Of a DNA stretch of 64,000 bases, positions 4,991 to 61,594 are shown in pieces. Every line of letters begins with the position of its first letter. Position 1 is the first letter of the stretch. The notes under the pieces are model-generated. The model made no database searches and had not been told where the DNA came from. It worked only from the letters and a program-made list of their open reading frames with translations. This DNA comes from Sipunculus nudus (taxonomy: Eukaryota; Annelida; Sipuncula; Golfingiida; Sipunculidae), in contig CM049320.1 in assembly GCA_026874595.1 (NCBI GenBank), forward strand, positions 5,211,464 through 5,275,463, given 5' to 3'. The position numbers and the translations under genes were made by a program.

Positions 4991-5079
4991 CCGTAGCGTC
5001 AATCCCTTTTTTAGAGTCAAGAAAGGAGTTGAACCCCTTGTTTACATTAAAGGACCTGGCTCTTGTACTATGCTATGCA

Positions 5080-7601: not shown

Positions 7602-8146
7602 TCCCCCCCCCCCCCCCGGGTAGGCTGTGTGACAGGGAACCCGTAATGAAAGACAATGGTGAATGGCTGTGTGTAAGGGAACCCGTGTTGGATGATAATT
7701 GTGTAGGGCAGTACGCCAGGACACCTGTTCCGGAAGACACTACTTTAGGGCTGTGCGGCAGGGTACCAGTGCTAGATGACACAGATGTAGCGCTATGTGA
7801 GAGGTTACCTGTGCTGGTATACACTGGTTTAGGGCTGTGTGACAGGATAAGCGTGCTGGATGACAATTGTTTAGGGCTGAGTGACAGGAAATCCGTGCTA
7901 GGTGACACTAGGGCTCTGTAACAATGAATATCTGTTGGGTAACACATGTAAAAGGCAATGTGACAGGGAACCCGCGTTGAATGACACTGGTGTAGGGCTG
8001 TGTGACATGGATCACGTGTTGTGTGACACTGATGAATGGCTCTGTGACAGGGAACCCGTGTTGGGTGACACTGGTGAGGGGCTTTGTGACAAGTAACCCT
8101 CTCTGAGTGACCCTGGAGTACGGCAGTGTGAGAGAGCTAACGTGCT
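7602..8146. repeat. 42-bp minisatellite array M1 (diverged, about 13 units)
   Basis: After a poly-C run (7602-7617), a degenerate 42-bp unit repeats, beginning GGGCTGTGTGACAGGG and ending near GGTGACACTGGTGTA. In the plus frame the ancestral unit would read GLYDRDTVLGDPGV (14 residues), but here most units have LCDR- or LCGR-like variants. Because 42 is divisible by three and the unit lacks stops in several frames, short open frames appear on both strands; I treat them as by-products. The array sits just downstream of CD225 exon 3 of copy A, as in the other units. Confidence 0.85.
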
Positions 8147-8353
8147 GCTATATATACTATAATGTTTCTATATCCGAGTCTATACATGTTAACTCAGGTC
8201 CCGACTTAATATTCGCGTGACAAATTTGAAGTTAGGGAACTTAAATTCTCCTATCATTACAGAAGGAAGATTTATTACAGCAAATGAAATAGATGCCACT
8301 TTAGCACCACCTTCCTTTTCTGATTCTCAATTTTCTATTGGCAGCATGGGGCT

Positions 8354-11744: not shown

Positions 11745-12545
11745 ACAGGCCTCACTTTATAGTTGCTGACACCACCTATTAGGTCTGACTGATGGCTTAG
11801 AAGAATTGATCACGGGCCGCTGATTGATCTTAATCATTATATAGACTCATTTAAAAATGCTATGTTTGAATAAAAACTCAACATGCCATGTTAGAACCCT
11901 TGTCAATATTGGAAAACGTTAACAGACCTGATGGCTGGTCATAAGTGAGTATGAATGGAGGCAATGTATACATTAATTAAGGGCTGTATAAATAATCGGT
12001 GCTAGATCCAGAGGGCGCGCGCCCTCATGGAGTTTTAACATCTCTCATTTTGTTGGGCGTTTTCTCCTTTATGCGAAATATATTTTTTTAGATTTCTTTT
12101 TATTTCCTAGCAATTAGATTATTAAATTTATTACTGTACAGTTATACGTCAGATTGCTTTTTACATCCAACACAGGATTGCACACGGGCCGCTTATTGAT
12201 CTTAAGAATTATATAGACTTATTTAATCATGTTAATTTTGCATTAAAACTTCCCCGACCATATTAGCATCCTAGTCAATAATCTAAAGCGTCCACTGATT
12301 TTATGGCTTGGCACAAGGGTAGATAATTGGAGACAATGTTTACACTAATTAAGGGTTTATCACTAATTAAGCGCTAATGGTTTTGTACAAGTGCTGAACA
12401 CAGGAACTTTTTGTAGGGAGATACTGTTGAGGGTGTCTATGTCAAGGACAAATTCTTTGCTGAACCCTGGTACATTGTCGACAGCATATATGATCCAGTG
12501 GTTTTGCTGTAGAACAAAAGGGACATCATGCAGCACAACTAATAT
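11745..12545. repeat. P-block copy 1 upstream of minisatellite M2
   Basis: This spacer type precedes each 42-bp minisatellite. Diagnostic phrases are GTCTGACTGATGGCTTA, CGGGCCGCTGATTGATCTTA, AAACTTCCCC and AACAGACCTGATGGCTGGTC. It contains an internal partial duplication (about 11,760-12,080 and 12,150-12,400) and the motif ATTAATTAAGGGCTG followed by TATAAATA at 11,987-11,994. Copies occur near 18.8, 33.1, 37.9 and 44.2 kb. Confidence 0.75.
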
Positions 12546-12548
12546 GTA

Positions 12549-13100
12549 GGAATGTATGAAAACCACCCAATCTTGGGTGACCTTGGTGTAGACCTGTATG
12601 ATAAGGACCCTGTCCTTGTTGATCATGGTGTAAAACTGCACAACAAGAAACCCCTGGTGGGTGACCTGGCTGAAAATCTGCATGATGAGGACACCGTGCT
12701 GTGTCACTCTGGTGTAGGGCTGTATGAAAAGTACACTCTACTAGGTGAACCTTGTGTAGGACTCTGACTGTGACATCGTGCCTGGTGACACTGATGTATG
12801 GCTGCATGTCAGTGGCCCCGTGCTGGATGGCCCTTTTACAGAGCTGTATGATATGGACACCATGCTTTGTGGCTCTGTTGTAGGGCGATATACAGCGACA
12901 TCTTGCTTGATGGCCCTGGTATGTGGCTGTATGACAGAGACAACTTGCTGGGTGACCCGTTGGTAGGGTTATATGACATGGACACCGTACTTGATGACCC
13001 AGGGGTAGGGATGTTTGATAGGATCATCGTCCAGGCGTATAGCTGTATGACTGTGACACCGTGCTTGTTGACCCTGGTGTAGGACTGTATGAGAATGTGT
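12549..13100. repeat. 42-bp minisatellite array M2 (about 13 units)
   Basis: Degenerate 42-bp units such as GGTGTAGGGCTGTATGA followed by CACC-GTGCT-GGTGA blocks. Open frames exist on both strands (for example 12,552-12,767 plus and 12,363-12,707 minus) but follow from a stop-free repeat unit. It sits between P-block 1 and exon 3 of the intact CD225 gene B. Confidence 0.85.
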
Positions 13101-13574: not shown

Positions 13575-15056
13575 TTAATAGGAAATATTGGCTCTAAGAG
13601 CCAAGAGGACAATGACAAACACGATAGATGTTATAATGCCCATCACGTTAAACACCATGGCCGTATTCCCATGACTTTCTGCTTGCCGGAAGTTTCTTTC
13701 ATCAGCACTGTCCCTCGACATCATGGAAAAGCACAAGGCGATCGCACCTGCGAAAATATACAGTGTCAGTATTCAGCAAGATATTTCTTTTGAACACATA
13801 CACCAATACACGCACACATTTTAACACATTTAACATTTACATGGCTAATGCATCATGTAAATCCAATGCTTTTAATGTGTGATATGTGTATTTGCTTGTG
13901 AAGCGACATTGCAGAGAATAGGTGGTGCAGGTGAGGACAGATTGGTTTGGAAATATTTGATATCTTGAATTTAGTTGGTGTTCCCTTTATTCCCCGCGGT
14001 TTGTATACACTTCTGTGTATAATTTCAAATTGTTTATCAAATAAGTTGACACAATTAAATATAGACCTATATTAAATATAATAAAACTGACCACACGGTA
14101 GGTTACAACATATGATTGTAAAGATGGAACACATCATGTAGTCATTTGGTCTGGCATCCGATTGTGGAAGCTGGCTCATAGTAGCCCCATCTTGACATCT
14201 TGGTTGGGAGACAACAACTGGTTGCTGGGCATCAGTCTTCTTATAATGAAGATCATACTCCATTTTATCCGAGGGGTTGTACTCAACACTGCAAGACACA
14301 AGTATATATACTGAATATTGAGGTTTTAAAAAGGTATTCGATACCGTATTTATGTGATTACGGGCAAGGTGGTATAATAACTTATGTCGGACATATCCAT
14401 TCAACATAGCACCGAATACCGTTTTACTGCCTTCAAATCCACGTCGTGTTCACTTTATACTCGTAATCAATTGCATATCGATCTGCATCGGTGAAACCAC
14501 GGTGAGAAGTTTTTGTTTCAATCCTGAATTTATTAATGCAGTTTTCGCATCACCGCAGTGTCAAAACGCGTAAAATGTATGATATAATATTTCTATCCTC
14601 GATGCATATAAAAATAGGAAGCATTTTTACGCACATGCGCTATAACGTATCCAGCACCTCGGACCGAACGCCAACCGATTATTAGTTTCTGATATTCAAC
14701 GGACACGTAAGGACCAACTTTAGTGATCTCTGCCTAGATATAACAATATTACATGGTTAAAAGTGAATAATAACAAAAAACTTGATATCTCCGCCAGTGG
14801 ACTTTCATTCTATCAAGAGAAACGTAATGAATATAAATATTATGTTTTCATATCTGATTTGGTATTGAAACACAGAAATTCAGTTAAACCCACGATGAGG
14901 ATATCATACAGATCTACATATCTATACAGATAAAGATTTAGCAAACATATACAGTTAAATCGATATAAACTGTTGCGACTGAAATGAGGACAGACATATT
15001 ATTTACCATTCAGGAAGTTTCATGCTGATGGTTGATATATTGCCGTCGTTCTCCAT
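13575..15056 (-). CDS. CD225/dispanin (IFITM-like) gene B, three exons, 139 aa, intact
   Basis: Three exons join in frame. Exon 1 is 15,007-15,056 (ATG in TGACCATGG, 16 codons plus two bases, donor GTAAAT). Exon 2 is 14,092-14,288 (acceptor CTTGCAG, 197 nt, donor GTCAGT). Exon 3 is 13,575-13,747 (acceptor TTCGCAG, ends TAA). Intron phases are 2 then 1. The N-terminal about 65 residues are polar and proline/glutamine-containing (DAQQPVVVSQPR). The CD225 domain starts at about residue 64: PNDYMMCSIFTIICCNLPCG forms the first hydrophobic segment, AIALCFSMMSRDSADE the cytosolic loop, and AMVFNVMGIITSIVFVIVLL the second hydrophobic helix. Cysteines beside helix 1 could be palmitoylated, as in IFITM proteins. 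Dispanins are small membrane proteins acting in membrane trafficking or antiviral restriction; the role here is unknown. Splice sites are predicted by eye. Confidence 0.85.
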
Positions 15057-19627: not shown

Positions 19628-20145
19628 AATGTATTACAACCACCCAATTTTGTGTGATCATGGTGTAGATCTGCATGATAAGGGCCTTGCTTTTGTAATG
19701 TAGAACAACCTTGTGTTGTATCATGGTCTGGAACTGCACGACAAGAAACCCCTGGTTGGTGTAAATCTGCATTATAAGGACACCGTGCTGTTTGACTCTG
19801 ATGTAGGGCTGTATAAAAAGTACCCCATGGTGGGTGACACTGATGTATGGCTGTTTGACAGGCACCCCGTGCTGGATGGCCCTTATACAGGGCTGTATGA
19901 CATAAACACCGTGCCCGATGACACTGTTGTAGGGCCATATACAGGGACATCTTGCTATGTGGCCCTGGTATATGTCTGTATGATCGAGACATTGTCTGGG
20001 TGACCCATTTGTAGGGTTATATGGCAAAGACACCATGCAGGGTGACCCTTGTGTACGATGTATGATAGGGAAACTGTCCTGGTGTATGACTGAATGACAG
20101 TGACACCGTGCTTGTTGACCTTGATGTAGGATTGTCTGAGAGGAA
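19628..20145. repeat. 42-bp minisatellite array M3 (about 12 units)
   Basis: Degenerate 42-bp units with GTAGGGCTGTATAA/GACA starts. A 301-codon minus frame (20,432-19,527) runs through it and both flanks, but it contains no conserved domain and depends on the repeat being stop-free. Lies between P-block 2 and CD225 copy C exon 3. Confidence 0.85.
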
Positions 20146-20642: not shown

Positions 20643-21392
20643 TCAAGGGGCCCAATTCGTTCTCCAAACATAATAGCCTGATACGGAAAAAATAGTGTAA
20701 AGAGCTGAGACGACAATGACAAACACGACAAATGTTATAATGCCGAGCACGTAAACACCATGTAAGTTTGCCAATGGCGCTCTGCTTTCCGGAATCTTTT
20801 TTATCAGCACTCCAATCGACATCACAGAAAAGCACAAAGCTAGTGTACCTGCGAATGCAAATATACAGCGTCACTATTTATTAAGTCGCTATCCTTTTGA
20901 ACACACACCCCCAGACGTACACGCATCACGCACAGTTAGTGATCACCTTTAGGAAATAATGTGACCAGTAGTTTCTAAATCCAAGACGTATTTGTTGTAA
21001 CTACTTTCAATGTGTGATATGCATATTTGCACGTCATTGAAAGTAGTTACAACAAATACGTCTTGGATTTGTGATATGCGGATTGCACGTCGACATTACC
21101 AGAACCACATCTGATATGGGTACGGGTGCATAGTGTTGGTATTAAAAAAATTGTTGAACTAAGGTATGGTTCCTTTAATTAGGTTGGTATTCTCTTTTTA
21201 CCTCGTTTTACACTTCTATTTATGATTTCAAATCATTTGTAAAATAAGTTGAAAAATATAAATATTATTTACACCGAGCACACGGTAGGTTGCAACAGAT
21301 GATTGTAAAGATGGAACACACCACGTGGTTATCTGGTCTAGCATCCGCTTGTGAAAGCTTCCCCTAGCGAAACCATATTTCCCTATTGGTTT
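20643..21392 (-). pseudogene. CD225 gene copy C, truncated and broken
   Basis: Exon 3 keeps the acceptor TTCGCAG (exon start 20,848) and begins GTLALCFSVMS, but small deletions shift the loop frame before the second hydrophobic stretch (YVLGIITFVVFVIVVSALY). Exon 2 survives only from about 21,272 to 21,392: it encodes SQADARPDNHVVCSIFTIIC in the family frame but its donor GT is lost (TGTG then CTCGG) and a one-base deletion creates a stop. The 5' half of exon 2 is gone, replaced by an A-rich junction at 21,393. No exon 1 was found. The intron holds the perfect inverted repeat at 20,977-21,070. Confidence 0.8.
20977..21070. repeat. Perfect 36-bp inverted repeat with 22-bp loop
   Basis: Left arm 20,977-21,012 (starts AAATCCAAGACGTATTTG) and right arm 21,035-21,070 (ends CAAATACGTCTTGGATTT) are exact reverse complements. 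The loop 21,013-21,034 (TGTGATATGCATATTTGCAC plus GT) is repeated directly after the right arm at 21,070-21,090 (TGTGATATGCGGATTGCACG plus T). A hairpin inserted between two copies of a short direct repeat is a typical template-switching footprint. Confidence 0.95.
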
Positions 21393-28539: not shown

Positions 28540-29385
28540 CAATCACAACAGAATTTAAATAAATGTGTCTTTAGTCCTGAGTTAAACAATTAAGTAGACA
28601 TGTCATATGTGTTACTGTGGCTCTAGGGTAAAGCATTCTAAAGTCTAGGAGCTACCTGTACAAAACAACCATGTAGAGTTGAAGAAAAATTACATCTGGC
28701 AGGAATCGTTAACCTAACAGCTGTGGCTGACCATAACCGTTCATTACTATTTAATTTAAGAGCTTCAATCAGGAATTCTGGTGCCGTTCCTTTAATTCAC
28801 TTAAAAGTTGATAATAGAATCATATTTTATTCTGTATGGAATTTTCACCCAGTGAAGGGCTTTCAGCGAGGGGGAGATGTGGTCATGTTTATTTAGACCC
28901 GTTACAAGGCGAACACTTGTGTTCTGAATATACTGAATATATATCGCACCAACGAGAAGACTGTTGCTCGACCCTGCTCATAACTAATACTTGAGTTAAG
29001 AGTTTCCTTGAATCTATTTTATATAGTGTTTCACCCTAAACATTCGCTTTAGCATGAAATGTAAGGACGGACATACTTTATTTATGTTCTCTCTAGAACT
29101 GAGTGTACTACCTATATAGGTTTCATACACATCTAGTTGGCTGGATAATATCATCACTAATCTTTACTCAAAGATCCTCATCTTTCTTGAGGTTGACTTT
29201 AGTACCAATTATGATAACTTCAGTCTTATCTTCGTTCAATTTAAGTCTGTTTACCCTCATCCATGCTCTTATGGATGATATACACTTTTCTAATCCAGAG
29301 TCTCATTAATGTTTGGAATGTCCTTCGGATCAAAAGAGCAATTTAACTGCTGATCATCTGCGTAACCATGAAACTTAAAAGGGCT
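28540..29385 (-). pseudogene. Non-LTR retrotransposon RT fragment (CR1/L2-like)
   Basis: Reading the minus strand across frames gives KFHGYADDQQLNCSF with the catalytic YADD box (about 29,372-29,361), then CISSIRAWMRVNRLKLNEDK and TEVIIIGTKVNLKK, the palm/thumb signature of CR1/L2-type non-LTR reverse transcriptases. After a stop, decayed downstream motifs follow, including TLYKIDSRKLLTQVLVMSRV and VAPRL*NALP, which resembles the usual APKLWN-LP end. Several stops and at least one frameshift (after NETLD) show it is dead. The upstream part is missing where the S-block begins at about 29,385. Confidence 0.75.
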
Positions 29386-33064: not shown

Positions 33065-33440
33065 TCAGTCCTCTGGTGACAGACATACAACAAAAGATTA
33101 CACACAGGCCACCCTTATCGTAACTGATCTGTATCAATATATAGACCCATTTCAACATGATATGTTTACATAAAAACTTCCCCATCAATATTAGAATCCA
33201 TGTCAATATTTGAAAGCTTTAACAGACCTGATGGCTGGTCACAAGCGTATATAAATGGTGGCAATGTGTAAACTAATTAAAGGTTTTATAAATAAATGTC
33301 AAACATAAGGACCCTTGTAGCGCGAAACTGGTGAAGGTCTCAATGTCAGAGACGATTTCTTTGCTGCCCCTGGTACACTGATGACAGCATATATGACCCA
33401 GCTTTAAAGCTTTAAAAAAAGGACAGCGAGCTGCGTGACC
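33065..33440. repeat. P-block copy 3 upstream of minisatellite M4
   Basis: Contains GATTACACACAGGCC, TAAAAACTTCCCCATCA, AACAGACCTGATGGCTGGTC and CTAATTAAAGGTTTTATAAA; TATAAATA is at 33,287-33,294. It is shorter than copies 1 and 2 because the internal partial duplication is absent. Confidence 0.75.
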
Positions 33441-33442
33441 AG

Positions 33443-33872
33443 TGTGTAGGAATGTATGAAAGCAATACCATTCTTGGTGGCACTGGTGTAGGACTGTATG
33501 ACAGAGACACTATGCAAGGTGACCCTTGTGTATGGCTGTATGACAGGGTCACCGTGTTAGATGACCCTGGTGTAGGGCTGTATGACAGGGTCACCGTGCT
33601 AGGTGGTTCTGGAGTAGGGCTTTATGACAGCGACATTGTGCTGGGTGGCCCAAGTGTAGATCTGTATAGCAAGAACACCACGCTGGCTGACTCTTGTGTT
33701 GGGCTGTTTGACAGGGACACCGTGCTGGGTGTGCCTTGTGTAGGGATGTATGATAAGGAATTCGTGCTAGTGACCCTGCTGTATGGCAGGTGTGATGCCA
33801 TGCTGGGAGAGACTCGTGTATTGCTGTATGAGAGCAAGTTGTTATCCAGGCAGAGTGTTGTTTGACGAGGAC
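33443..33872. repeat. 42-bp minisatellite array M4 (about 10 units, best preserved)
   Basis: The clearest 42-bp array: plus-frame units read GLYDRDTMQGDPCV, WLYDRVTVLDDPGV, GLYDRVTVLGGSGV and so on, open for 137 codons (33,452-33,865). Minus frames read SYSPTPGSPSTVSL-like units and are also open. Openness on both strands and many amino-acid-changing differences argue for non-coding minisatellite. No CD225 exons follow within the next 2 kb, so that gene has been lost from this unit. Confidence 0.85.
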
Positions 33873-38391: not shown

Positions 38392-38620
38392 TGTGTACGA
38401 ATGTACGAAAGCCATCCCATTCTTGGTTACCTGGTTTAAGATTTTCAGACAGCGACACCGAGCTGGGTGCCCTGGTGTAGGGCTGCATGACAAGAACACC
38501 GTGTTGAGTGTCCCTGGTGTAGGGTATGATAGGCAAATCCTGATGGTGACATAGGTGTTGGTTTGAATGACAGGAACACCATGCTAGCATTACAAGGTTG
38601 TAATTAGATCAGGGTGTTGT
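38392..38620. repeat. 42-bp minisatellite array M5 (about 5 units)
   Basis: Short degenerate array with CTGGTGTAGGGCTGCATGAC and GTAGGGTATGATAGG units, followed by flank shared with M4 (TTGATTCC-x-AAATTG and CCAGCAC-GA-GGCC). Confidence 0.8.
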
Positions 38621-39759: not shown

Positions 39760-41255
39760 GGCGTCATACGATTGTGTCCAATGATCCCTCTTGTTCACCA
39801 AAATTCTCTTGCTCTCCTGATTTCTTAAAATCAGCACGGAGAGCCAACATGACAATGACAAGAACGACAGCTGTTATAATACCGATCAGGTTTACACTAT
39901 GGTCGTTTTCCCATGCTTTTTATCAGCACACTCCTTCGACTTCACCAAAAAGCACAATGAAAATATACATTGTCATCTCTTAAATAGTTACATGACTAAC
40001 ACGTTATGTAATCACAGTAGCGCTTGATGTAACAGTTTTGAATATGTGGTATGTATAGCGAGTATGTATAGCGTAAAAGCAAGTCGCCATTACCGGACTT
40101 ATATGGGTGAATACGGTTATTAAGAAAACAAAATTATATTGGAATTCGAAATGGTTCCTATAATTTGTTCAGTGTTCTCTTAGTTCAAATTATTTCTAAA
40201 TTAAGTCTATATAATTATATTTGATTTAAACTTACCACACGGTAGGTTCCAACATAGGATTATAAAGACGGAACACATCAGGTAGTCATCAGGTCTGGCA
40301 TCCGATTGTGGAAGCTGACCCCTGGCATACCCATTTTGACCTCTTGGCTGGGACACAACAACTGGTTCGTGGTCAACGGTTTTCTTGAAATGAAGGAAAT
40401 GCTCCGTTTCATCCGAGTCTTTGTATTCATACCTGCCCGAAACAAGTATGTCCTAATGCTGATTATGAAGGCAAAGAAACGATATTCGATGTGAATACTG
40501 GTAATTGGATAACACGGCTTATGTCAGACTTAAACTGAGTACTCGAGTAGTCTGTACGTCCCTCGGACATGTCCACACTTTCAGTGGCGTCCATTTATCT
40601 TCAAGTGTGTTTGTGTGTGTGTGGGGGGGGGGGACGCTGTGTGGTAGGGTCATCAGAGTCTGAAAAACTTTATAAACAGTTATTCCATGTCCAATATATA
40701 AATATAGCAGGGGGCGATTTCATTTACAACTATCCCCAACTGTTGCTAAATGGTGGTGGTGTGTGTGTGTGTGGGGGGGGGGTATACCCACATCCCCCAC
40801 TACATTAACGCCCTTGCACACTATACAACTGTGTTTATTGAATATAGAACGTAATTCCTGTTTCTGCCTCTCGATCCAAATCCTGTTTAAATTAGATGAG
40901 TATTCAATCGTGTTTCGATGACGTCAGAGAAACTACGACAGGGGTAGTCTCAATACCTAGTGCAATTGAAACTGGTCATGTTACAATATTTTTACTGCCC
41001 TAAAGTGCGTAAGGATTAAATTGAATGTTCCCTGCCAGCGGCCGTTCATTCTACCAAGACAAAACTTGTGACGTTTAACTTTTAACGCGTGGAAATACGA
41101 AAATATGATGAAACCAACAATGACGTCGTCGTACAGGTCTACATAGAAAAAAGTTAACATTTTTAGGGTTTACATGGATTGTACAACTAGCCAAAGACAT
41201 GGTGGAGTTTATTTTATTACCCGTCGGAAATGTTCATCCAGCCGTTGTTCTCCAA
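39760..41255 (-). pseudogene. CD225 gene copy E: exons 1-2 conserved, exon 3 destroyed
   Basis: Exon 1 (41,221-41,255) keeps its phase and donor GTAATA, but the start ATG is TTG; the next in-frame ATG is at codon 7. Exon 2 (40,236-40,432, 197 nt) is fully open with acceptor GGGCAG and donor GTAAGT, encoding EPVVVSQPRGQNGYARGQLP and PDDYLMCSVFIILCWNLPC. Exon 3 (about 39,775-39,960) has lost its acceptor and first codons, contains in-frame stops and a deletion in the loop, though the second hydrophobic stretch (IITAVVLVIVMLALRADFKK) is recognisable. Probably recently inactivated. Two GT/G-rich tracts (40,608-40,632 and 40,758-40,782) lie in intron 1. Confidence 0.8.
40600..40800. repeat. Paired GT/poly-G tracts
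   Basis: Two tracts of GTGTGTGTGTGT followed by eight to eleven G lie about 150 bases apart in intron 1 of CD225 copy E, perhaps a local duplication or a retroposed segment between them. Confidence 0.6.
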
Positions 41256-46419: not shown

Positions 46420-47690
46420 TCTGGTCAGTAGTTAAAAGTGAAATTTATACTGGAATTCAGTAATTTTATTTAATACATGACAAAGTGTGTAAAGTTTACT
46501 TACACTGACCAAGAGATATCAAGACCTGCTTTGGGCCAGCTCAAGCATGAAAGGGATGGGGGTTTCAGTTTTTATATTTGTGATATCAGTCTAAATATTC
46601 TGACTGAATCTTACAGATATATAATGGTTCTATTGAGGTCACATATAAGTGTTTTCTTTTCAACTAATTGGATCAACCCGATTACAATTATCCTTTCTTC
46701 TCCATGTTTTCATTCAGCTTTCGTATTTTGAATATATTATTAAAATGTGTCCTTCTTCCAATACATTTTGTGGAATTATACACAGTAATTCTTTTGAAAG
46801 TGGCTTTCGATATATAAGCTACTAAATGTGGTAGTATATTATCAATTTTTCAGCTTACGTAAAAGGTCATGAACATATGTAGACTTGAATCATCAGGTAA
46901 TATTGAGACTTGGTCAGGTGGGACCACTGAAGGTTGTTTTATATTAACATGCCATGTCTTATTTTTATTCGGTAACCAGGGGACACCATACCCTCGAACA
47001 CATTGTTTAACATTTAACACGCACAACAGCATGATATTAACTTTTAAATCCCTGCTAACATGACAACTACGGAACCATTGACAGAATTCATGTCAAAGTC
47101 GTAAATTTTCCAGCGGGAGCCACACTCACATGATGGAGATAACGAGATGTTCATGTAACAGTTTTGAATCATTTAATATTTGTGATATTCATTTGTATTT
47201 ATAAACTCATTAAAGTGTTGGAAATATCTTCCGAATTTGAGAAAGTAACCATTAAAATCAAACATTCAAATACCTATTGCCGTTGTCAAGCGTAAAAGTT
47301 GCATGATTTGGGCGACAGTGACAAACAGACAACGTGTAGTCTGTACCAGTACCCGTGTCAGCATGTTTTCCGGGACATTTTAACAGTTCTAGGTCGTGGG
47401 AGCAATTCCTTCGACTGCCGAGTGAATGACCATGTCTTTACTTGTAGTGAATTTGTATGAGACACATAATTCAAAATATGAGAAAACACTTTACAGTTAT
47501 AACGAAATATTCAACACTTGACAACAGAGATATAGCAACTCCAGCTGTTGATGTCAGTCAATGCGATGTCATACGCAACCGGCCTTTGTTACGTCAACAT
47601 GACGTCACTATTGTCTATAAACACCTGTAGCAAACATTTAAATTCGAAAGCCTTCTGAGAAGGAGCGCATATGGGTTCATTAGCAGAAGG
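46420..47690. other. Spacer before the satellite array
   Basis: Open frames of 60-84 codons (46,477-46,731; 46,869-47,063) match nothing I know. The final 50 bases before the array contain CCTTCTGAGAAGG, a short perfect stem-loop, then AGAAGGGCTGTGATGG, where the first satellite unit begins. Confidence 0.45.
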
Positions 47691-50600
47691 GCTGTGATGG
47701 TTAGTGGCTATGTCATGAAGGAACTACTTTCTCCTGGTGATACTGACTGTAGGACTGTTGTGATGGTTAGTGGCTATGTCATGAAGGAACTACTTTCTCC
47801 TGGTGATACTGACTGTAGGACTGTTGTGATGGTTAGTGGCTATGTCATGAAGGAACTACTTTCTCTTGGTGATACTGACTGTAGGACTGTTGTGATGGTT
47901 AGTGGCTATGTCATGAAGGAACTACTTTCTCCTGGTGACATTGACTGTAGGACTGTTGTGATGGTTAGTGGCTATGTCATGAAGGAACTACTTTCTCCTG
48001 GTGATACTGACTGTAGGACTGTTGTGATGGTTAGTGGCTATGTCATGAAGGAACTACTTTCTCCTGGTGATACTGACTGTAGGACTGTTGTGATGGTTAG
48101 TGGCTATGTCATGAAGGAACTACTTTCTCCTGGTGACACTGACTGTAGGACTGTTGTGATGGTTAGTGGCTATGTCATGAAGGAACTACTTTCTCCTGGT
48201 GACACTGACTGTAGGACTGTTGTGATGGTTAGTGGCTATGTCATGAAGGAACTGCTTTCTCCTGGTGACACTGACTGTAGGACGGTTGTGATGGTTAGTG
48301 GCTATGTCATGAAGGAACTGCTTTCTCCTGGTGACACTGACTGTATGGCTGTTGTGATGGTTAGTGGCTATGTCATGAAGGAACTACTTTCTCCTGGTGA
48401 CACTGACTGTAGGACTGTTGTGATGGTTAGTGGCTATGTCATGAAGGAACTACTTTCTCCTGGTGACACTGACTGTAGGACTGTTGTGATGGTTAGTGGC
48501 TATGTCATGAAGGAACTACTTTCTCCTGGTGACACTGACTGTAGGACTGTTGTGATGGTTAGTGGCTATGTCATGAAGGAACTACTTTCTCCTGGTGACA
48601 CTGACTGTAGGACTGTTGTGATGGTTAGTGGCTATATCATGAAGGAACTACTTTCTCCTGGTGATACTGACTGTAGGACTGTTGTGATGGTTAGTGGCTA
48701 TGTCATGAAGGAACTACTTTCTCCTGGTGATACTGACTGTAGGACTGTTGTGATGGTTAGTGGCTATGTCATAAAGGAACTACTTTCTCCTGGTGATACT
48801 GACTGTAGGACTGTTGTGATGGTTAGTGGCTATGTCATGAAGGAACTACTTTCTCCTGGTGATACTGACTGTAGGACTGTTGTGATGGTTAGTGGCTATG
48901 TCATGAAGGAACTACTTTCTCCTGGTGATACTGACTGTAGGACTGTTGTGATGGTTAATGGCTATGTCATGAAGGAACTACTTTCTCCTGGTGATACTGA
49001 CTGTAGGACTGTTGTGATGGTTAGTGGCTATGTCATGAAGGAACTACTTTCTCCTGGTGATACTGACTGTAGGACTGTTGTGATGGTTAGTGGCTATGTC
49101 ATGAAGGAACTACTTTCTCCTGGTGATACTGACTGTAGGACTGTTGTGATGGTTAGTGGCTATGTCATGAAGGAACTACTTTCTCCTGGTGATACTGACT
49201 GTAGGACTGTTGTGATGGTTAGTGGCTATGTCATGAAGGAACTACTTTCTCCTGGTGATACTGACTGTAGGACTGTTGTGATGGTTAGTGGCTATGTCAT
49301 GAAGGAACTACTTTCTCCTGGTGATACTGACTGTAGGACTGTTGTGATGGTTAGTGGCTATGTCATGAAGGAACTACTTTCTCCTGGTGATACTGACTGT
49401 AGGACTGTTGTGATGGTTAGTGGCTATGTCATGAAGGAACTACTTTCTCCTGGTGATACTGACTGTAGGACTGTTGTGATGGTTAGTGGCTATGTCATGA
49501 AGGAACTACTTTCTCCTGGTGATACTGACTGTAGGACTGTTGTGATGGTTAGTGGCTATGTCATAAAGGAACTACTTTCTCCTGGTGATACTGACTGTAG
49601 GACTGTTGTGATGGTTAGTGGCTATGTCATGAAGGAACTACTTTCTCCTGGTGATACTGACTGTAGGAATGTTGTGATGGTTAGTGGCTATGTCATGAAG
49701 GAACTACTTTCTCCTGGTGATACTGACTGTAGGACTGCTGTGATGGTTAGTGGCTATGTCATGAAGGAACTACTTTCTCCTGGTGATACTGACTGTAGGA
49801 CTGCTGTGATGGTTAGTGGCTATGTCATGAAGGAACTACTTTCTCCTGGTGATACTGACTGTAGGACTGTTGTGATGGTTAGTGGCTATGTCATGAAGGA
49901 ACTACTTTCTCCTGGTGATACTGACTGTAGGACTGTTGTGATGGTTAGTGGCTATGTCATGAAGGAACTACTTTCTCCTGGTGATACTGACTGTAGGACT
50001 GTTGTGATGGTTAGTGGCTATGTCATGAAGGAACTACTTTCTCCTGGTGATACTGACTGTAGGACTGTTGTGATGGTTAGTGGCTATGTCATGAAGGAAC
50101 TACTTTCTCCTGGTGATACTGACTGTAGGACTGTTGTGATGGTTAGTGGCTATGTCATGAAGGAACTACTTTCTCCTGGTGATACTGACTGTAGGACTGT
50201 TGTGATGGTTAGTGGCTATGTCATGAAGGAACTACTTTCTCCTGGTGATACTGACTGTAGGACTGTTGTGATGGTTAGTGGCTATGTCATGAAGGAACTA
50301 CTTTCTCCTGGTGATACTGACTGTAGGACTGTTGTGATGGTTAGTGGCTATGTCATGAAGGAACTACTTTCTCCTGGTGATACTGACTGTAGGACTGTTG
50401 TGATGGTTAGTGGCTATGTCATGAAGGAACTACTTTCTCCTGGTGATACTGACTGTAGGACTGTTGTGATGGTTAGTGGCTATGTCATGAAGGAACTACT
50501 TTCTCCTGGTGATACTGACTGTAGGACTGTTGTGATGGTTAGTGGCTATGTCATGAAGGAACTACTTTCTCCTGGTGATACTGACTGTAGGACTGTTGTG

Positions 50601-53600
50601 ATGGTTAATAGCTATGTCATGAAGGAACTACTTTCTCCTGGTGATACTGACTGTAGGACTGTTGTGATGGTTAGTGGCTATGTCATGAAGGAACTACTTT
50701 CTCCTGGTGATACTGACTGTAGGACTGTTGTGATGGTTAGTGGCTATGTCATGAAGGAACTACTTTCTCCTGGTGATACTGACTGTAGGACTGTTGTGAT
50801 GGTTAGTGGCTATGTCATGAAGGAACTACTTTCTCCTGGTGATACTGACTGTAGGACTGTTGTGATGGTTAGTGGCTATGTCATGAAGGAACTACTTTCT
50901 CCTGGGGTTTATTGACTGTAGGACTGTTGTGATGGTTAGTGGCTATGTCATGAAGGAACTACTTTCTCCTGGTGATACTGACTGTAGGACTGTTGTGATG
51001 GTTAGTGGCTATGTCATGAAGGAACTACTTTCTCCTGGTGATACTGACTGTAGGACTGTTGTGATGGTTAGTGGCTATGTCATGAAGGAACTACTTTCTC
51101 CTGGTGATACTGACTGTAGGACTGTTGTGATGTTTAGTGGCTATGTCATGAAGGAACTAATTTCTCCTGGTGATACTGACTGTAGGACTGTTGTGATGGT
51201 TAGTGGCTATGTCATGAAGGAACTACTTTCTCCTGGTGATACTGACTGTAGGACTGTTGTGATGGTTAGTGGCTATGTCATGAAGGAACTACTTTCTCCT
51301 GGTGATACTGACTGTAGGACTGTTGTGATGGTTAGTGGCTATGTCATGAAGGAACTACTTTCTCCTGGTGATACTGACTGTAGGACTGTTGTGATGGTTA
51401 GTGGCTATGTCATGAAGGAACTACTTTCTCCTGGTGATACTGACTGTAGGACTGTTGTGATGGTTAGTGGCTATGTCATGAAGGAACTACTTTCTCCTGG
51501 TGATACTGACTGTAGGACTGTTGTGATGGTTAGTGGCTATGTCATGAAGGAACTACTTTCTCCTGGTGATACTGACTGTAGGACTGTTGTGATGGTTAGT
51601 GGCTATGTCATGAAGGAACTACTTTCTCCTGGTGATACTGACTGTAGGACTGTTGTGATGGTTAGTGGCTATGTCATGAAGGAACTACTTTCTCCTGGTG
51701 ATACTGACTGTAGGACTGTTGTGATGGTTAGTGGCTATGTCATGAAGGAACTACTTTCTCCTGGTGATACTGACTGTAGGACTGTTGTGATGGTTAGTGG
51801 CTATGTCATGAAGGAACTACTTTCTCCTGGTGATACTGACTGTAGGACTGTTGTGATGGTTAGTGGCTATGTCATGAAGGAACTACTTTCTCCTGGTGAT
51901 ACTGACTGTAGGACTGTTGTGATGGTTAGTGGCTATGTCATGAAGGAACTACTTTCTCCTGGTGATACTGACTGTAGGACTGTTGTGATGGTTAGTGGCT
52001 ATGTCATGAAGGAACTACTTTCTCCTGGTGATACTGACTGTAGGACTGTTGTGATGGTTAGTGGCTATGTCATGAAGGAACTACTTTCTCCTGGTGATAC
52101 TGACTGTAGGACTGTTGTGATGGTTAGTGGCTATGTCATGAAGGAACTACTTTCTCCTGGTGATACTGACTGTAGGACTGTTGTGATGGTTAGTGGCTAT
52201 GTCATGAAGGAACTACTTTCTCCTGGTGATACTGACTGTAGGACTGTTGTGATGGTTAGTGGCTATGTCATGAAGGAACTACTTTCTCCTGGTGATACTG
52301 ACTGTAGGACTGTTGTGATGGTTAGTGGCTATGTCATGAAGGAACTACTTTCTCCTGGTGATACTGACTGTAGGACTGTTGTGATGGTTAGTGGCTATGT
52401 CATGAAGGAACTACTTTCTCCTGGTGATACTGACTGTAGGACTGTTGTGATGGTTAGTGGCTATGTCATGAAGGAACTACTTTCTCCTGGTGATACTGAC
52501 TGTAGGACTGTTGTGATGGTTAGTGGCTATGTCATGAAGGAACTACTTTCTCCTGGTGATACTGACTGTAGGACTGTTGTGATGGTTAGTGGCTATGTCA
52601 TGAAGGAACTACTTTCTCCTGGTGATACTGACTGTAGGACTGTTGTGATGGTTAGTGGCTATGTCATGAAGGAACTACTTTCTCCTGGTGATACTGACTG
52701 TAGGACTGTTGTGATGGTTAGTGGCTATGTCATGAAGGAACTACTTTCTCCTGGTGATACTGACTGTAGGACTGTTGTGATGGTTAGTGGCTATGTCATG
52801 AAGGAACTACTTTCTCCTGGTGATACTGACTGTAGGACTGTTGTGATGGTTAGTGGCTATGTCATGAAGGAACTACTTTCTCCTGGTGATACTGACTGTA
52901 GGACTGTTGTGATGGTTAGTGGCTATGTCATGAAGGAACTACTTTCTCCTGGTGATACTGACTGTAGGACTGTTGTGATGGTTAGTGGCTATGTCATGAA
53001 GGAACTACTTTCTCCTGGTGATACTGACTGTAGGACTGTTGTGATGGTTAGTGGCTATGTCATGAAGGAACTACTTTCTCCTGGTGATACTGACTGTAGG
53101 ACTGTTGTGATGGTTAGTGGCTATGTCATGAAGGAACTACTTTCTCCTGGTGATACTGACTGTAGGACTGTTGTGATGGTTAGTGGCTATGTCATGAAGG
53201 AACTACTTTCTCCTGGTGATACTGACTGTAGGACTGTTGTGATGGTTAGTGGCTATGTCATGAAGGAACTACTTTCTCCTGGTGATACTGACTGTAGGAC
53301 TGTTGTGATGGTTAGTGGCTATGTCATGAAGGAACTACTTTCTCCTGGTGATACTGACTGTAGGACTGTTGTGATGGTTAGTGGCTATGTCATGAAGGAA
53401 CTACTTTCTCCTGGTGATACTGACTGTAGGACTGTTGTGATGGTTAGTGGCTATGTCATGAAGGAACTACTTTCTCCTGGTGATACTGACTGTAGGACTG
53501 TTGTGATGGTTAGTGGCTATGTCATGAAGGAACTACTTTCTCCTGGTGATACTGACTGTAGGACTGTTGTGATGGTTAGTGGCTATGTCATGAAGGAACT

Positions 53601-56600
53601 ACTTTCTCCTGGTGATACTGACTGTAGGACTGTTGTGATGGTTAGTGGCTATGTCATGAAGGAACTACTTTCTCCTGGTGATACTGACTGTAGGACTGTT
53701 GTGATGGTTAGTGGCTATGTCATGAAGGAACTACTTTCTCCTGGTGATACTGACTGTAGGACTGTTGTGATGGTTAGTGGCTATGTCATGAAGGAACTAC
53801 TTTCTCCTGGTGATACTGACTGTAGGACTGTTGTGATGGTTAGTGGCTATGTCATGAAGGAACTACTTTCTCCTGGTGATACTGACTGTAGGACTGTTGT
53901 GATGGTTAGTGGCTATGTCATGAAGGAACTACTTTCTCCTGGTGATACTGACTGTAGGACTGTTGTGATGGTTAGTGGCTATGTCATGAAGGAACTACTT
54001 TCTCCTGGTGATACTGACTGTAGGACTGTTGTGATGGTTAGTGGCTATGTCATGAAGGAACTACTTTCTCCTGGTGATACTGACTGTAGGACTGTTGTGA
54101 TGGTTAGTGGCTATGTCATGAAGGAACTACTTTCTCCTGGTGATACTGACTGTAGGACTGTTGTGATGGTTAGTGGCTATGTCATGAAGGAACTACTTTC
54201 TCCTGGTGATACTGACTGTAGGACTGTTGTGATGGTTAGTGGCTATGTCATGAAGGAACTACTTTCTCCTGGTGATACTGACTGTAGGACTGTTGTGATG
54301 GTTAGTGGCTATGTCATGAAGGAACTACTTTCTCCTGGTGATACTGACTGTAGGACTGTTGTGATGGTTAGTGGCTATGTCATGAAGGAACTACTTTCTC
54401 CTGGTGATACTGACTGTAGGACTGTTGTGATGGTTAGTGGCTATGTCATGAAGGAACTACTTTCTCCTGGTGATACTGACTGTAGGACTGCTTGTGATGG
54501 TTAGTGGCTATGTCATGAAGGAACTACTTTCTCCTGGTGATACTGACTGTAGGACTGTTGTGATGGTTAGTGGCTATGTCATGAAGGAACTACTTTCTCC
54601 TGGTGATACTGACTGTAGGACTGTTGTGATGGTTAGTGGCTATGTCATGAAGGAACTACTTTCTCCTGGTGATACTGACTGTAGGACTGTTGTGATGGTT
54701 AGTGGCTATGTCATGAAGGAACTACTTTCTCCTGGTGATACTGACTGTAGGACTGTTGTGATGGTTAGTGGCTATGTCATGAAGGAACTACTTTCTCCTG
54801 GTGATACTGACTGTAGGACTGTTGTGATGGTTAGTGGCTATGTCATGAAGGAACTACTTTCTCCTGGTGATACTGACTGTAGGACTGTTGTGATGGTTAG
54901 TGGCTATGTCATGAAGGAACTACTTTCTCCTGGTGATACTGACTGTAGGACTGTTGTGATGGTTAGTGGCTATGTCATGAAGGAACTACTTTCTCCTGGT
55001 GATACTGACTGTAGGACTGTTGTGATGGTTAGTGGCTATGTCATGAAGGAACTACTTTCTCCTGGTGATACTGACTGTAGGACTGTTGTGATGGTTAGTG
55101 GCTATGTCATGAAGGAACTACTTTCTCCTGGTGATACTGACTGTAGGACTGTTGTGATGGTTAGTGGCTATGTCATGAAGGAACTACTTTCTCCTGGTGA
55201 TACTGACTGTAGGACTGTTGTGATGGTTAGTAGCTATGTCATGAAGGAACTACTTTCTCCTGGTGATACTGACTGTAGGACTGTTGTGATGGTTAGTGGC
55301 TATGTCATGAAGGAACTACTTTCTCCTGGTGATACTGACTGTAGGACTGTTGTGATGGTTAGTGGCTATGTCATGAAGGAACTACTTTCTCCTGGTGATA
55401 CTGACTGTAGGACTGTTGTGATGGTTAGTGGCTATGTCATGAAGGAACTACTTTCTCCTGGTGATACTGACTGTAGGACTGTTGTGATGGTTAGTGGCTA
55501 TGTCATGAAGGAACTACTTTCTCCTGGTGATACTGACTGTAGGACTGTTGTGATGGTTAGTGGCTATGTCATGAAGGAACTACTTTCTCCTGGTGATACT
55601 GACTGTAGGACTGTTGTGATGGTTAGTGGCTATGTCATGAAGGAACTACTTTCTCCTGGTGATACTGACTGTAGGACTGTTGTGATGGTTAGTGGCTATG
55701 TCATGAAGGAACTACTTTCTCCTGGTGATACTGACTGTAGGAATGTTGTGATGGTTAGTGGCTATGTCATGAAGGAACTACTTTCTCCTGGTGATACTGA
55801 CTGTAGGACTGTTGTGATGGTTAGTGGCTATGTCATGAAGGAACTACTTTCTCCTGGTGATACTGACTGTAGGACTGTTGTGATGGTTAGTGGCTATGTC
55901 ATGAAGGAACTACTTTCTCCTGGTGATACTGACTGTAGGACTGTTGTGATGGTTAGTGGCTATGTCATGAAGGAACTACTTTCTCCTGGTGATACTGACT
56001 GTAGGACTGTTGTGATGGTTAGTGGCTATGTCATGAAGGAACTACTTTCTCCTGGTGATACTGACTGTAGGACTGTTGTGATGGTTAGTGGCTATGTCAT
56101 GAAGGAACTACTTTCTCCTGGTGATACTGACTGTAGGACTGTTGTGATGGTTAGTGGCTATGTCATGAAGGAACTACTTTCTCCTGGTGATACTGACTGT
56201 AGGACTGTTGTGATGGTTAGTGGCTATGTCATGAAGGAACTACTTTCTCCTGGTGATACTGACTGTAGGACTGTTGTGATGGTTAGTGGCTATGTCATGA
56301 AGGAACTACTTTCTCCTGGTGATACTGACTGTAGGACTGTTGTGATGGTTAGTGGCTATGTCATAAAGGAACTACTTTCTCCTGGTGATACTGACTGTAG
56401 GACTGTTGTGATGGTTAGTGGCTATGTCATAAAGGAACTACTTTCTCCTGGTGATACTGACTGTAGGACTGTTGTGATGGTTAGTGGGTATGTCATGAAG
56501 GAACTACTTTCTCCTGGTGATACTGACTGTAGGACTGTTGTGATGGTTAGTGGCTATGTCATGAAGGAACTACTTTCTCCTGGTGATACTGACTGTAGGA

Positions 56601-59600
56601 CTGTTGTGATGGTTAGTGGCTATGTCATGAAGGAACTACTTTCTCCTGGTGATACTGACTGTAGGACTGTTGTGATGGTTAGTGGCTATGTCATGAAGGA
56701 ACTACTTTCTCCTGGTGATACTGACTGTAGGACTGTTGTGATGGTGAGTGGCTATGTCATGAAGGAACTACTTTCTCCTGGTGATACTGACTGTAGGACT
56801 GTTGTGATGGTTAGTGGCTATGTCATGAAGGAACTACTTTCTCCTGGTGATACTGACTGTAGGACTGTTGTGATGGTTAATGGCTATGTCATGAAGGAAC
56901 TACTTTCTCCTGGTGATACTGACTGTAGGACTGTTGTGATGGTGAGTGGCTATGTCATGAAGGAACTACTTTCTCCTGGTGATACTGACTGTAGGACTGT
57001 TGTGATGGTTAGTGGCTATGTCATGAAGGAACTACTTTCTCCTGGTGATACTGACTGTAGGACTGTTGTGATGGTTAGTGGCTATGTCATGAAGGAACTA
57101 CTTTCTCCTGGTGATACTGACTGTAGGACTGTTGTGATGGTTAATGGCTATGTCATGAAGGAACTACTTTCTCCTGGTGATACTGACTGTAGGACTGTTG
57201 TGATGGTTAGTGGCTATGTCATGAAGGAACTACTTTCTCCTGGTGATACTGACTGTAGGACTGTTGTGATGGTTAGTGGCTATGTCATGAAGGAACTACT
57301 TTCTCCTGGTGATACTGACTGTAGGACTGTTGTGATGGTTAGTGGCTATGTCATGAAGGAACTACTTTCTCCTGGTGATACTGACTGTAGGACTGTTGTG
57401 ATGGTTAGTGGCTATGTCATGAAGGAACTACTTTCTCCTGGTGATACTGACTGTAGGACTGTTGTGATGGTTAGTGGCTATGTCATGAAGGAACTACTTT
57501 CTCCTGGTGATACTGACTGTAGGACTGTTGTGATGGTTAATGGCTATGTCATGAAGGAACTACTTTCTCCTGGTGATACTGACTGTAGGACTGTTGTGGT
57601 GGTTAGTGGCTATGTCATGAAGGAACTACTTTCTCCTGGTGATACTGACTGTAGGACTGTTGTGGTGGTTAGTGGCTATGTCATGAAGGAACTACTTTCT
57701 CCTGGTGATACTGACTGTAGGACTGTTGTGATGGTTAGTGGCTATGTCATGAAGGAACTACTTTCTCCTGGTGATACTGACTGTAGGACTGTTGTGATGG
57801 TTAGTGGCTATGTCATGAAGGAACTACTTTCTCCTGGTGATACTGACTGTAGGACTGTTGTGATGGTTAGTGGCTATGTCATGAAGGAACTACTTTCTCC
57901 TGGTGATACTGACTGTAGGACTGTTGTGATGGTTAGTGGCTATGTCATGAAGGAACTACTTTCTCCTGGTGATACTGACTGTAGGACTGTTGTGATGGTT
58001 AGTGGCTATGTCATGAAGGAACTACTTTCTCCTGGTGATACTGACTGTAGGACTGTTGTGATGGTTAGTGGCTATATCATGAAGGAACTACTTTCTCCTG
58101 GTGATACTGACTGTAGGACTGTTGTGATGGTTAATAGCTATGTCATGAAGGAACTACTTTCTCCTGGTGATACTGACTGTAGGACTGTTGTGATGGTTAG
58201 TGGCTATGTCATGAAGGAACTACTTTCTCCTGGTGATACTGACTGTAGGACTGTTGTGATGGTTAGTGGCTATGTCATGAAGGAACTACTTTCTTCTGGT
58301 GATACTGACTGTAGGACTGTTGTGATGGTTAGTGGCTATGTCATGAAGGAACTACTTTCTCCTGGTGATACTGACTGTAGGACTGTTGTGATGGTTAGTG
58401 GCTATGTCATGAAGGAACTACTTTCTCCTGGTGATACTGACTGTAGGACTGTTGTGATGGTTAGTGGCTATGTCATGAAGGAACTACTTTCTCCTGGTGA
58501 TACTGACTGTAGGACTGTTGTGATGGTTAGTGGCTATGTCATGAAGGAACTACTTTCTCCTGGTGATACTGACTGTAGGACTGTTGTGATGGTAAGTGGC
58601 TATGTCATGAAGGAACTACTTTCTCCTGGTGATACTGACTGTAGGACTGTTGTGATGGTTAGTGGCTATGTCATGAAGGAACTACTTTCTCCTGGTGATA
58701 CTGACTGTAGGACTGTTCTGATGGTTAGTGGCTATGTCATGAAGGAACTACTTTCTCCTGGTGATACTGACTGTAGGACTGTTGTGATGGTTAGTGGCTA
58801 TGTTATGAAGGAACTACTTTCTCCTGGTGATACTGACTGTAGGACTGTTGTGATGGTTAGTGGCTATGTCATGAAGGAACTACTTTCTCCTGGTGATACT
58901 GACTGTAGGACTGTTGTGATGGTTAGTGGCTATATCATGAAGGAACTACTTTCTCCTGGTGATACTGACTGTAGGACTGTTGTGATGGTTAGTGGCTATG
59001 TCATGAAGGAACTACTTTCTCCTGGTGATACTGACTGTAGGACTGATGTGATGGTTAGTGGCTATGTCATGAAGGAACTACTTTCTCCTGGTGATACTGA
59101 CTGTAGGACTGTTCTGATGGTTAGTGGCTATGTCATGAAGGAACTACTTTCTCCTGGTGATACTGACTGTAGGACTGTTGTGATGGTTAGTGGCTATGTC
59201 ATGAAGGAACTACTTTCTCCTGGTGATACTGACTGTAGGACTGTTGTGATGGTTAGTGGCTATGTCATGAAGGAACTACTTTCTCCTGGTGATACTGACT
59301 GTAGGACTGTTGTGATGGTTAGTGGCTATGTCATGAAGGAACTACTTTCTCCTGGTGATACTGACTGTAGGACTGTTGTGATGGTTAGTGGCTATGTCAT
59401 AAAGGAACTACTTTCTCCTGGTGATACTGACTGTAGGACTGTTGTGATGGTTAGTGGCTATGTCATGAAGGAACTACTTTCTCCTGGTGATACTGACTGT
59501 AGGACTGTTGTGATGGTTAGTGGCTATGTCATGAAGGAACTACTTTCTCCTGGTGATACTGACTGTAGGACTGTTGTGATGGTTAATGGCTATGTCATGA

Positions 59601-59978
59601 AGGAACTACTTTCTCCTGGTGATACTGACTGTAGGACTGTTGTGATGGTTAGTGGCTATGTCATGAAGGAACTACTTTCTCCTGGTGATACTGACTGTAG
59701 GACTGTTGTGATGGTTAGTGGCTATGTCATGAAGGAACTACTTTCTCCTGGTGATACTGACTGTAGGACTGTTGTGATGGTTAGTGGCTATGTCATAAAG
59801 GAACTACTTTCTCCTGGTGATACTGACTGTAGGACTGTTGTGATGGTTAGTGGCTATGTCATAAAGGAACTACTTTCTCCTGGTGATACTGACTGTAGGA
59901 CTGTTGTGATGGTTAATAGCTATGTCATGAAGGAACTACTTTCTCCTGGTGATACTGACTGTAGGACTGTATGAAAGG
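47691..59978. repeat. 66-bp satellite array, about 186 head-to-tail copies
   Basis: The unit starts ATGGTTAGTGGCTATGTCAT and ends GACTGTAGGACTGTTGTG; 12.28 kb divided by 66 gives about 186 copies. In one plus frame it reads a 22-residue repeat starting MVSGYVMKEL and ending DCRTVV, giving open frames of 1,073, 1,191 and 1,834 codons. Two +1 indels, near 50,905 and 54,489, separate these frames. I regard it as non-coding: 66 is a multiple of three, so one stop-free frame is unsurprising; most variants change the residue (S to N, M to I, V to I, T to N/A); and there is no signal peptide, domain or exon structure at either edge. The right edge (GTAGGACTGTATGAAAGG) turns into the 42-bp family, and the unit resembles about 1.5 such units. 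Confidence 0.95.
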
Positions 59979-60084
59979 TATACTCAGTTGTGCGTGTGCG
60001 TTTTATATAAAGTGATTTGCAAGTGTGAAGAAATCCACATAAAGAAAAAATATGGTAACTGTTCTTTGGTGGGTTACCTTATAG

Positions 60085-60550
60085 TGAAGGTCTTTATGAC
60101 AGGGACATCTTGTTGGTTGACCCTTGTTATGGGCTGTATAACAGGGACACCATGCTGGGCGATGTTGGTGTAGAGCTGTATGACAGGGACAACATTCTGG
60201 GTGGCCTGGTTTCGGGCTGTATGGCAGTGACACCGTGCTGGGTGACCCTGGTGCAGGGCTGTATGACCAGGACACCGTGCTGGGTGGTCTGGTGCAGGGC
60301 TGTATGACGGTGACACCGTTCTGGGTGTCCCTGGTGTAGGGCTGTGTGACAGTGACACCGTGCTGGTAACCCTGGTGTTTGGAAATGTGATAGGGACACC
60401 ATGATGGGTGACCCTAGTGTTGGGATGTGTGACATTAATAACGTGCTGGGTGACCCTGGTGTAGGGCCGTATGACAGGGACACCGTACGGTATGACAGGG
60501 ACCTGGTATACTTAGTGACCCTAGTTTAGGAATGAATGTCAGGACACCGT
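60085..60550. repeat. 42-bp minisatellite array M6 (about 11 units)
   Basis: Units such as GGGCTGTATGACAGGGACAC followed by CGTGCTGGGTGACCCTGGTG are close to the family consensus. Five of six frames are open for several units. It lies between the 66-bp satellite and exon 3 of CD225 gene F, the same arrangement (minisatellite downstream of a minus-strand CD225 gene) as M1-M3 and M5. Confidence 0.88.
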
Positions 60551-60848: not shown

Positions 60849-61594
60849 TCATCCTCTCTGTAGTATGGCTGGAAATCCATTGAACAGAAAGTAAATTAAG
60901 ACCAGGGCAGGAGGAAGTATGGCGCAGATAAAACAGACATTAGCAATTATTCCATATTTGCGTGCTCTCTGATAGTCACTTTTATCAGCCCTCGATTCTG
61001 ACATCAAGGCAAAGATGAAACCGAATAAGCCTGAAAACGGAAAAGAGACCTAATATATAACCATATTTTACATTAGTATGACAGGGGAATCAAGATTGAA
61101 AAACAGTCTAATATATGCAACAATACTAGTACCAACGATTCTTAGGGGATTTAAACAACATATGATATCATTCCATATAATTCATATTTACTGATATCCT
61201 AAACATGAGTATATCAAGTCTTGTAAAAGTATTAGCTAAATCGGAACACACGATTTGCGGAAAACCCCGTTGCACTGCTGCCGCAATATTTAACGTCTAA
61301 ATCGCCAGTCTTACCGAAAGGTAATGGACAGAAGAGGCAAGTTATACTGGACAGACACAGACAACTACTAGGCCTCTTTGGACGGGCCGGGGGCGATGGT
61401 TGGCACACTGTCGTGTTCTTAGCTTGCGGATGAAACAATAATTCTTGTTGTTGCTCTTTGTCTATGTAACCTAATGGCTGTGCGACTTTAGCCATTGGTA
61501 CAGGCTTGGCCACCTGCTCCGAAGATTCTGGCTCAATTATGTGATCGCCATCTGGCAGGTGTGTCACGTGGCCATATGCTGGTACCTCGGCCAT
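60849..61594 (-). CDS. CD225/dispanin (IFITM-like) gene F, divergent, two coding exons, 153 aa
   Basis: Coding exon 1 is 61,315-61,594 (ATG of AGAGTCATGGCC; an in-frame stop lies upstream at about 61,640; donor GTAAGA). Coding exon 2 is 60,849-61,030 (acceptor TTTTCAG, stop TGA). The single intron is phase 1 and falls at the same place in the CD225 domain as the second intron of genes B and D. The N-terminal about 70 residues are polar (EPESSEQVAKPVPMAKVAQP). The domain follows: RPKRPSSCLCLSSITCLFCP and LPFG (hydrophobic segment 1), LFGFIFALMSESRADKSDYQ and RARKYG (loop), then IIANVCFICAILPPALVLIY (helix 2) and a short tail. The intact frame despite divergence from B and D suggests a functional, older paralogue. 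A non-coding 5' exon is possible, since TTTATTATAG lies upstream. Confidence 0.82.

Follow-up and report, generated by a model that had tools for sequence, protein, structure and literature searches.

A single-locus 66-bp minisatellite beside a CD225-like gene of Sipunculus nudus, with a likely origin in a neighboring 42-bp repeat

The window, by which we mean the whole 64,000-nucleotide stretch of Sipunculus nudus DNA analyzed here, corresponds to C15:5211464-5275463 (contig CM049320.1) of an assembly with 1.43 Gb in 153 contigs. It contains a two-exon CD225-like gene on the minus strand and, 0.9 kb from the stop codon of this gene, an array of 66-bp units. The gene looks intact, and its spliced product matches Pfam CD225 with 41.9 bits (cut-off 27.1, E = 1.1e-10). 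The gene also carries the intron that is conserved in CD225/dispanin genes: it separates the end of exon 1 (61315) from the start of exon 2 (61030), in agreement with the conserved splice site between the two membrane helices described for dispanins (PMC3282796). The exons and the 42-bp arrays found in the window are the following (window coordinates).

61315..61594, minus strand: exon 1 of the CD225-like gene, from the ATG to a GTAAGA donor (Pfam match of the spliced protein)
60849..61030, minus strand: exon 2 of the same gene with its stop, the arrays lying 3' of it (Pfam match of the spliced protein)
60084..60486, plus strand: 42-bp array of 9.7 copies (TRF), proposed parent family of the 66-mer
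7623..8131, plus strand: 42-bp arrays 3' of the CD225-like copy at 8417-9079 (-)
12544..13076, plus strand: 42-bp array 3' of the CD225-like copy at 13578-14263 (-)
19759..20123, plus strand: 42-bp array 3' of the CD225-like copy at 20700-21360 (-)
33421..33777, plus strand: 42-bp array near which no CD225-like exon was found, the nearest exon 2 in the 3'-to-5' direction being 6.1 kb away
38434..38516, plus strand: short 42-bp remnant 3' of the CD225-like copy at 39830-40404 (-)

The gene is part of a tandem cluster. A tblastn search over 180 kb located 11 CD225/IFITM-like copies, all on the minus strand, which span about 168 kb (C15:5121520-5289222, including window 8417-61594); one of them has no detected exon 1 and several contain gaps or stops. 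Enlargement of the CD225 family in invertebrates was already known, since ten IFITM/dispanin proteins have been reported for the mollusc Aplysia (PMC9334734, in its available sections).

Over the same 180 kb, we found 11 clusters of the 42-mer, all on the plus strand, with 138 places at which at least 29 of the 42 bases are identical, compared to 0 on the other strand. Seven of these clusters sit 302-1314 bp 3' of an exon 2, and for the remaining four, the nearest exon 2 is 3.7-6.5 kb away. Sequences related to the array at 60.1 kb occur at five further places in the window, and a genome-wide search for this array, in which 11 of 11 first-look candidates were scored, gave at least 24 matches, all within C15:5125425-5271963 (147 kb on one contig). 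Further CD225 matches are located on six other contigs (C1, C2, C3, C5, C7 and C16), and therefore, within the scope of this search, the 42-mer belongs to this cluster and not to the whole gene family.

Five copies in the window adjoin an array, and in a motif scan that had no chance control, four of these (at 8, 13, 20 and 39 kb) had AATAAA in the interval from exon 2 to the 42-mers. The 61-kb copy has only ATTAAA, at 60598 and 60580, and the 26-kb CD225-like copy, which has no 42-mers nearby, also contains AATAAA. Judged from these sequences, the 42-bp arrays would mostly lie just past the transcripts. Separately, the 8-kb and 13-kb gene copies are paralogous from 8150 onward, right at the end (8147) of a 42-mer array, and the partner start position, 13338, is away from the 42-mers. 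Window 8147-8150 is possibly a rearrangement breakpoint within the minisatellite.

The 66-bp array itself was delimited by TRF at 47693-59970 (period 66, 186.0 copies, 99% matches, score 24132). The initial annotation, which had placed about 186 copies of a 66-bp unit at 47691-59978, was thus only a few bases off. Such tandem regularity is far beyond chance. The copy number of 186 is that of the assembly, and the true number could differ through assembly collapse or expansion. Features within the array and at its right edge are as follows.

47693..59970, plus strand: the 66-bp array, 186 units (TRF and unit splitting)
47891..48616, plus strand: left-edge units 4 and 7-14, with C at unit position 49 (GGTGAC; unit table and comparison with the 42-mer)
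50861..50927, plus strand: unit 49, first frame break, caused by a complex change of net +1 (unit splitting, frame listing)
51192..54425, plus strand: homogeneous core, an unbroken series of 49 identical units, 54-102 (longest consensus run)
54426..54492, plus strand: unit 103, a net +1 insertion and second frame break (unit splitting, frame listing)
59971..60083, plus strand: right flank, whose first part continues 42-mer-like sequence from the last 66-bp unit (nhmmer, pairwise alignment)

Unit splitting yielded 23 distinct unit sequences including the consensus, to which 139 of the 186 units are identical (mean divergence 0.46% from the consensus, 0.9% pairwise). The 47 variant units are unevenly distributed, with 20, 3 and 24 in the successive thirds of the array. 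An uninterrupted run as long as the 49 identical units was obtained in 0 of 20000 permutations. Additionally, identical variant units were adjacent in 8 pairs, compared to a permutation mean of 0.63 and a maximum of 4 in 5000 permutations. This combination of an identical core and variable ends had been overlooked in the initial annotation. Variants at both ends of an identical center are as expected of unequal exchange, which we take to be the probable mechanism.

The identical core also raises the question of misassembly, by which a short real array would have been inflated, as 49 identical consecutive units are impossible to anchor with short reads. However, the edge variants, the two distinct indels and the gradient of variants give the array an internal structure, and it is located at about 5.26 Mb on a 64.2-Mb contig, suggesting long-read assembly. 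We therefore consider an artefact very unlikely. The unit contains zero CpG, compared to 2.9 expected by composition (observed/expected 0.70 in the window outside the array), and the GC skew of the array is about +0.31.

As far as the assembly goes, the unit is confined to one locus. A 34-base core of the unit was found exactly at 160 places in the assembly and at 160 in the window, and a 36-base core, when up to 3 mismatches were allowed, at 186 places in each. Control patterns (the cores read backwards) had 0 places in the assembly. By these equal whole counts over 1.43 Gb, no unit within 3 mismatches of the 36-mer lies outside the window, a single-locus count that presumes that the assembly neither lacks nor has collapsed other 66-bp arrays. 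Therefore, we regard the array as a single-locus minisatellite and not as a dispersed satellite.

The initial annotation had favored satellite DNA. It was right as to a non-coding tandem repeat, but the assembly search, which it had itself suggested, gave no further locus and does not support the abundant, dispersed family that the term implies. The 186 near-identical, head-to-tail copies would indeed suit one array of a satellite family abundant throughout the genome, but the count of the 36-base core, as high in the window as in the whole assembly, makes this highly improbable. Arrays abundant across the genome are the mark of classical satellites, and the 66-bp unit has no such distribution in the assembly.

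A 37-base stretch of the unit had no exact match in collections of virus or bacterial/archaeal contigs, which is little informative for animal DNA, and a similarly little informative search of the virus contig collection gave no exact match for a 38-base stretch of the 42-mer. In the literature, as represented by partial texts, we found no prior description of the 66-bp repeat of this locus. The one paper retrieved for a 66-bp repeat together with satellite DNA is on sandalwood.

The array is open in one reading frame, and the initial annotation had weighed a giant repetitive protein against satellite DNA. Exactly one of the six frames of the consensus is open, as it had stated. A protein of 22-residue repeats would account for a unit length divisible by three and for a frame that is open across the array save two breaks. 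However, 22 random codons are free of stops with a chance of about 0.35 per frame, so that one open frame in six is unremarkable. Unit 49 and the end of unit 103 each carry a net +1 change; neither change is compensated, and together they divide the array into three stop-to-stop frames (1094 + 1205 + 1840 aa). On the left side, the open frame runs only about 20 codons past the array, and on the right side it closes at 59974, four bases beyond the last unit.

The types of variants were also compared with those expected with and without selection on the frame. After exclusion of unit 49 (complex indel), and with one of the three T66C entries (that of unit 103) assigned to the +1 insertion there, the array contains 55 substitutions in total, of which 23 are distinct: 7 synonymous, 16 replacement and 0 stop. 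The earlier remark that most unit variants change the amino acid thus stands. Without selection, 6.03 synonymous changes and 0.38 stops would be expected among 23 substitutions, as calculated from the observed split of transitions and transversions (P = 0.64 for the 7 synonymous observed). There is thus no synonymous excess, and the substitutions are spread evenly over codon positions 1, 2 and 3 (8/7/8). The absence of stop variants is uninformative, because just 0.38 are expected without selection. The probability of at most 7 synonymous changes is 1.4e-6, 0.0011, 0.019 and 0.19 at a dN/dS of 0.1, 0.2, 0.3 and 0.5, respectively. Strong constraint on the frame (dN/dS of 0.3 or less) is disfavored, and weak constraint is compatible with the data, as the test rests on 23 variants.

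A peptide of three units gave one Pfam match over the cut-off (Prot_ATP_ID_OB_C, 29.7 bits compared to 23). This match stems from a 20-residue piece that recurs in every unit, and we take it as a chance similarity summed over copies. Based on the variant types, the frame breaks and the end of the frame at the right edge, a giant protein of 22-residue repeats was rejected as a candidate, and we assign it a very low probability. The array has neither the kept frame nor the purifying selection of a repetitive protein-coding gene. It resembles coding minisatellites such as the Prdm9 zinc fingers (PMC3890296) in that the repeated unit consists of whole codons and has an open frame, but unlike these it carries no sign of selection on residues, and its frame is broken. 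The open frame would be a chance property of a 66-bp unit divisible by three. More generally, an open frame that extends over kilobases of a repeat array does not count as evidence for a protein, since the present unit is divisible by three and one of its six frames is expected to be open.

Searches for a ribozyme-bearing or other known RNA repeat were negative. Rfam had 0 matches at the gathering score in the whole window and, with E relaxed to 5, 0 within 47500-48200, and no tRNAs were found. RNA folding of the 66-bp unit was unremarkable on both strands (z = -0.44 and 1.29).

We propose the 42-bp minisatellite of the CD225 gene cluster as the likely source of the 66-bp unit, an origin that the initial annotation had missed. 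Aligned with the tandem 42-mer, the consensus unit reached a score of 40, and together with 40 bases of the right flank a score of 56 (0 of 2000 shuffles as good in either case), compared to a score of 14 for the opposite strand. For a real left-edge unit with C at position 49, the score was 44 on its own (1 of 5000 shuffles did as well) and 61 with flanking sequence added, 25 bases on the left and 40 on the right; shuffles of the latter averaged 23.6 (sd 5.3), and 0 of 5000 matched it. The part of the window before 47 kb was scored in 359 chunks, of which 16 came out as high, all of them inside 42-mer arrays. C at unit position 49 occurs in nine left-edge units (4 and 7-14) and in 46 of the 54 42-mer places in the window, and because of this shared base, these units look closer to the parent.

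Further, a profile HMM of the 42-mer matched the right junction of the array with 13.4 bits, compared to at most 8.1 bits in shuffles, and the collapsed locus with 16.5 bits, again at the right junction. The profile had no match in the bare 66-mer array or in the left flank (47500-47760), and this flank contributes only 2 of 25 bases to the best 42-mer alignment; its inclusion with the consensus unit and right flank raises the score only from 56 to 57. Weaker tests were the tandem 66-mer consensus (24 of 2000 shuffles as good), the consensus unit in shifted phase (170 of 5000) and the first real unit with its left flank (5 of 2000), each compared with the 42-mer. Taken as sequence similarity, the 66-mer looks like a decayed stretch of about 1.5 periods of the 42-bp minisatellite.

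A possible history can be outlined from these comparisons. The 42-bp minisatellite would have become a resident of the tandem CD225 (IFITM/dispanin-like) cluster and spread with gene duplication, as suggested by its co-location with the genes and its single orientation. Next, about 1.5 periods of this repeat, in decayed form and today 66 bp long, would have been duplicated in tandem near the gene at 60.85-61.6 kb, most likely in place. We favor amplification in place because 42-mer-like sequence continues across the right edge and the number of units is whole; the left edge is silent on this point. Repeated unequal exchange or gene conversion, suggested by the variant map, may have brought the array to 186 copies with an identical center and variants at the edges.

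Insertion of the array from extrachromosomal circular DNA, or within a transposable element, would be a different route to the same locus. Mobile elements often carry tandem repeats, and the left flank has no 42-mer-like continuation. However, the 1.5-kb flanks share no inverted or direct repeat above the shuffled level (best 22.3 bits, compared to a mean of 23.0 in 30 shuffles), so that no transposon ends were found within 1.5 kb. The continuation of 42-mer-like sequence from the last unit into the right flank also speaks against insertion, as do the 186.0 units, although on visual inspection an imperfect partial copy of about 10 bases may be present at the left edge. We consider insertion improbable. 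A non-coding, single-locus minisatellite that arose from a decayed 42-mer stretch by a CD225 gene, was amplified most likely in place and was enlarged by exchange is the reading we prefer, with a probability of roughly 0.88.

Human MS32 is a hypervariable minisatellite, and the classical variant maps of such loci are interspersed. The 66-bp array shares with the hypervariable minisatellites MS32 and MSY1 the unit length, the single locus, the kilobase-long array, runs of variants and highly similar units, but its core of 49 identical units is more uniform than the interspersed maps of the classical loci. Its tandem unit of 66 bp in 186 copies falls within the 10-100 bp given for minisatellites in the accessible part of PMC5615363, and it occupies a discrete locus in gene-bearing DNA. 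The same part of that paper describes that the center of tandem arrays is homogenized more efficiently than the ends, and that longer units of satellite DNA arise from shorter ones by duplication and divergence. The array has in common with satellite DNA under concerted evolution, as treated there, the homogeneous center and a unit born from a shorter one, but satellite DNA forms long heterochromatic arrays or a genome-wide family, whereas here a single 12.3-kb locus lies beside genes.

The 66-bp array is a real but ordinary kind of minisatellite expansion, young and restricted to a single locus. It is a clean example of the birth of a minisatellite, with a likely parent repeat, a homogenized core and edge units that retain the parental base all visible at a single locus. 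Based on position, the 42-bp arrays and the 66-bp giant might conceivably be recombination-prone elements that aid duplication and diversification of the IFITM-like cluster, or might act in 3'-end formation or local chromatin; we consider such roles doubtful at best.

Other sequence features were observed nearby. An open frame of 190 aa at window 4500-5072 (-) is rich in serine and aspartate and has no Pfam match over the cut-off. Reverse-transcriptase-like remnants lie at window 28804-29302 (-), where two pieces were searched and one gave a sub-threshold RVT_1 match (14.9 bits compared to 29.6). Within the CD225 cluster, C15:5155831-5168331 (L040, L041) contains arrays with units of 101, 138 and 207 bp, some of them in larger blocks repeated at intervals of about 2.8 kb. 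The central part of the cluster, at C15:5168671-5201306 (L041-L044), carries about 32 kb of 77-bp tandem repeats with 78-79% matches.
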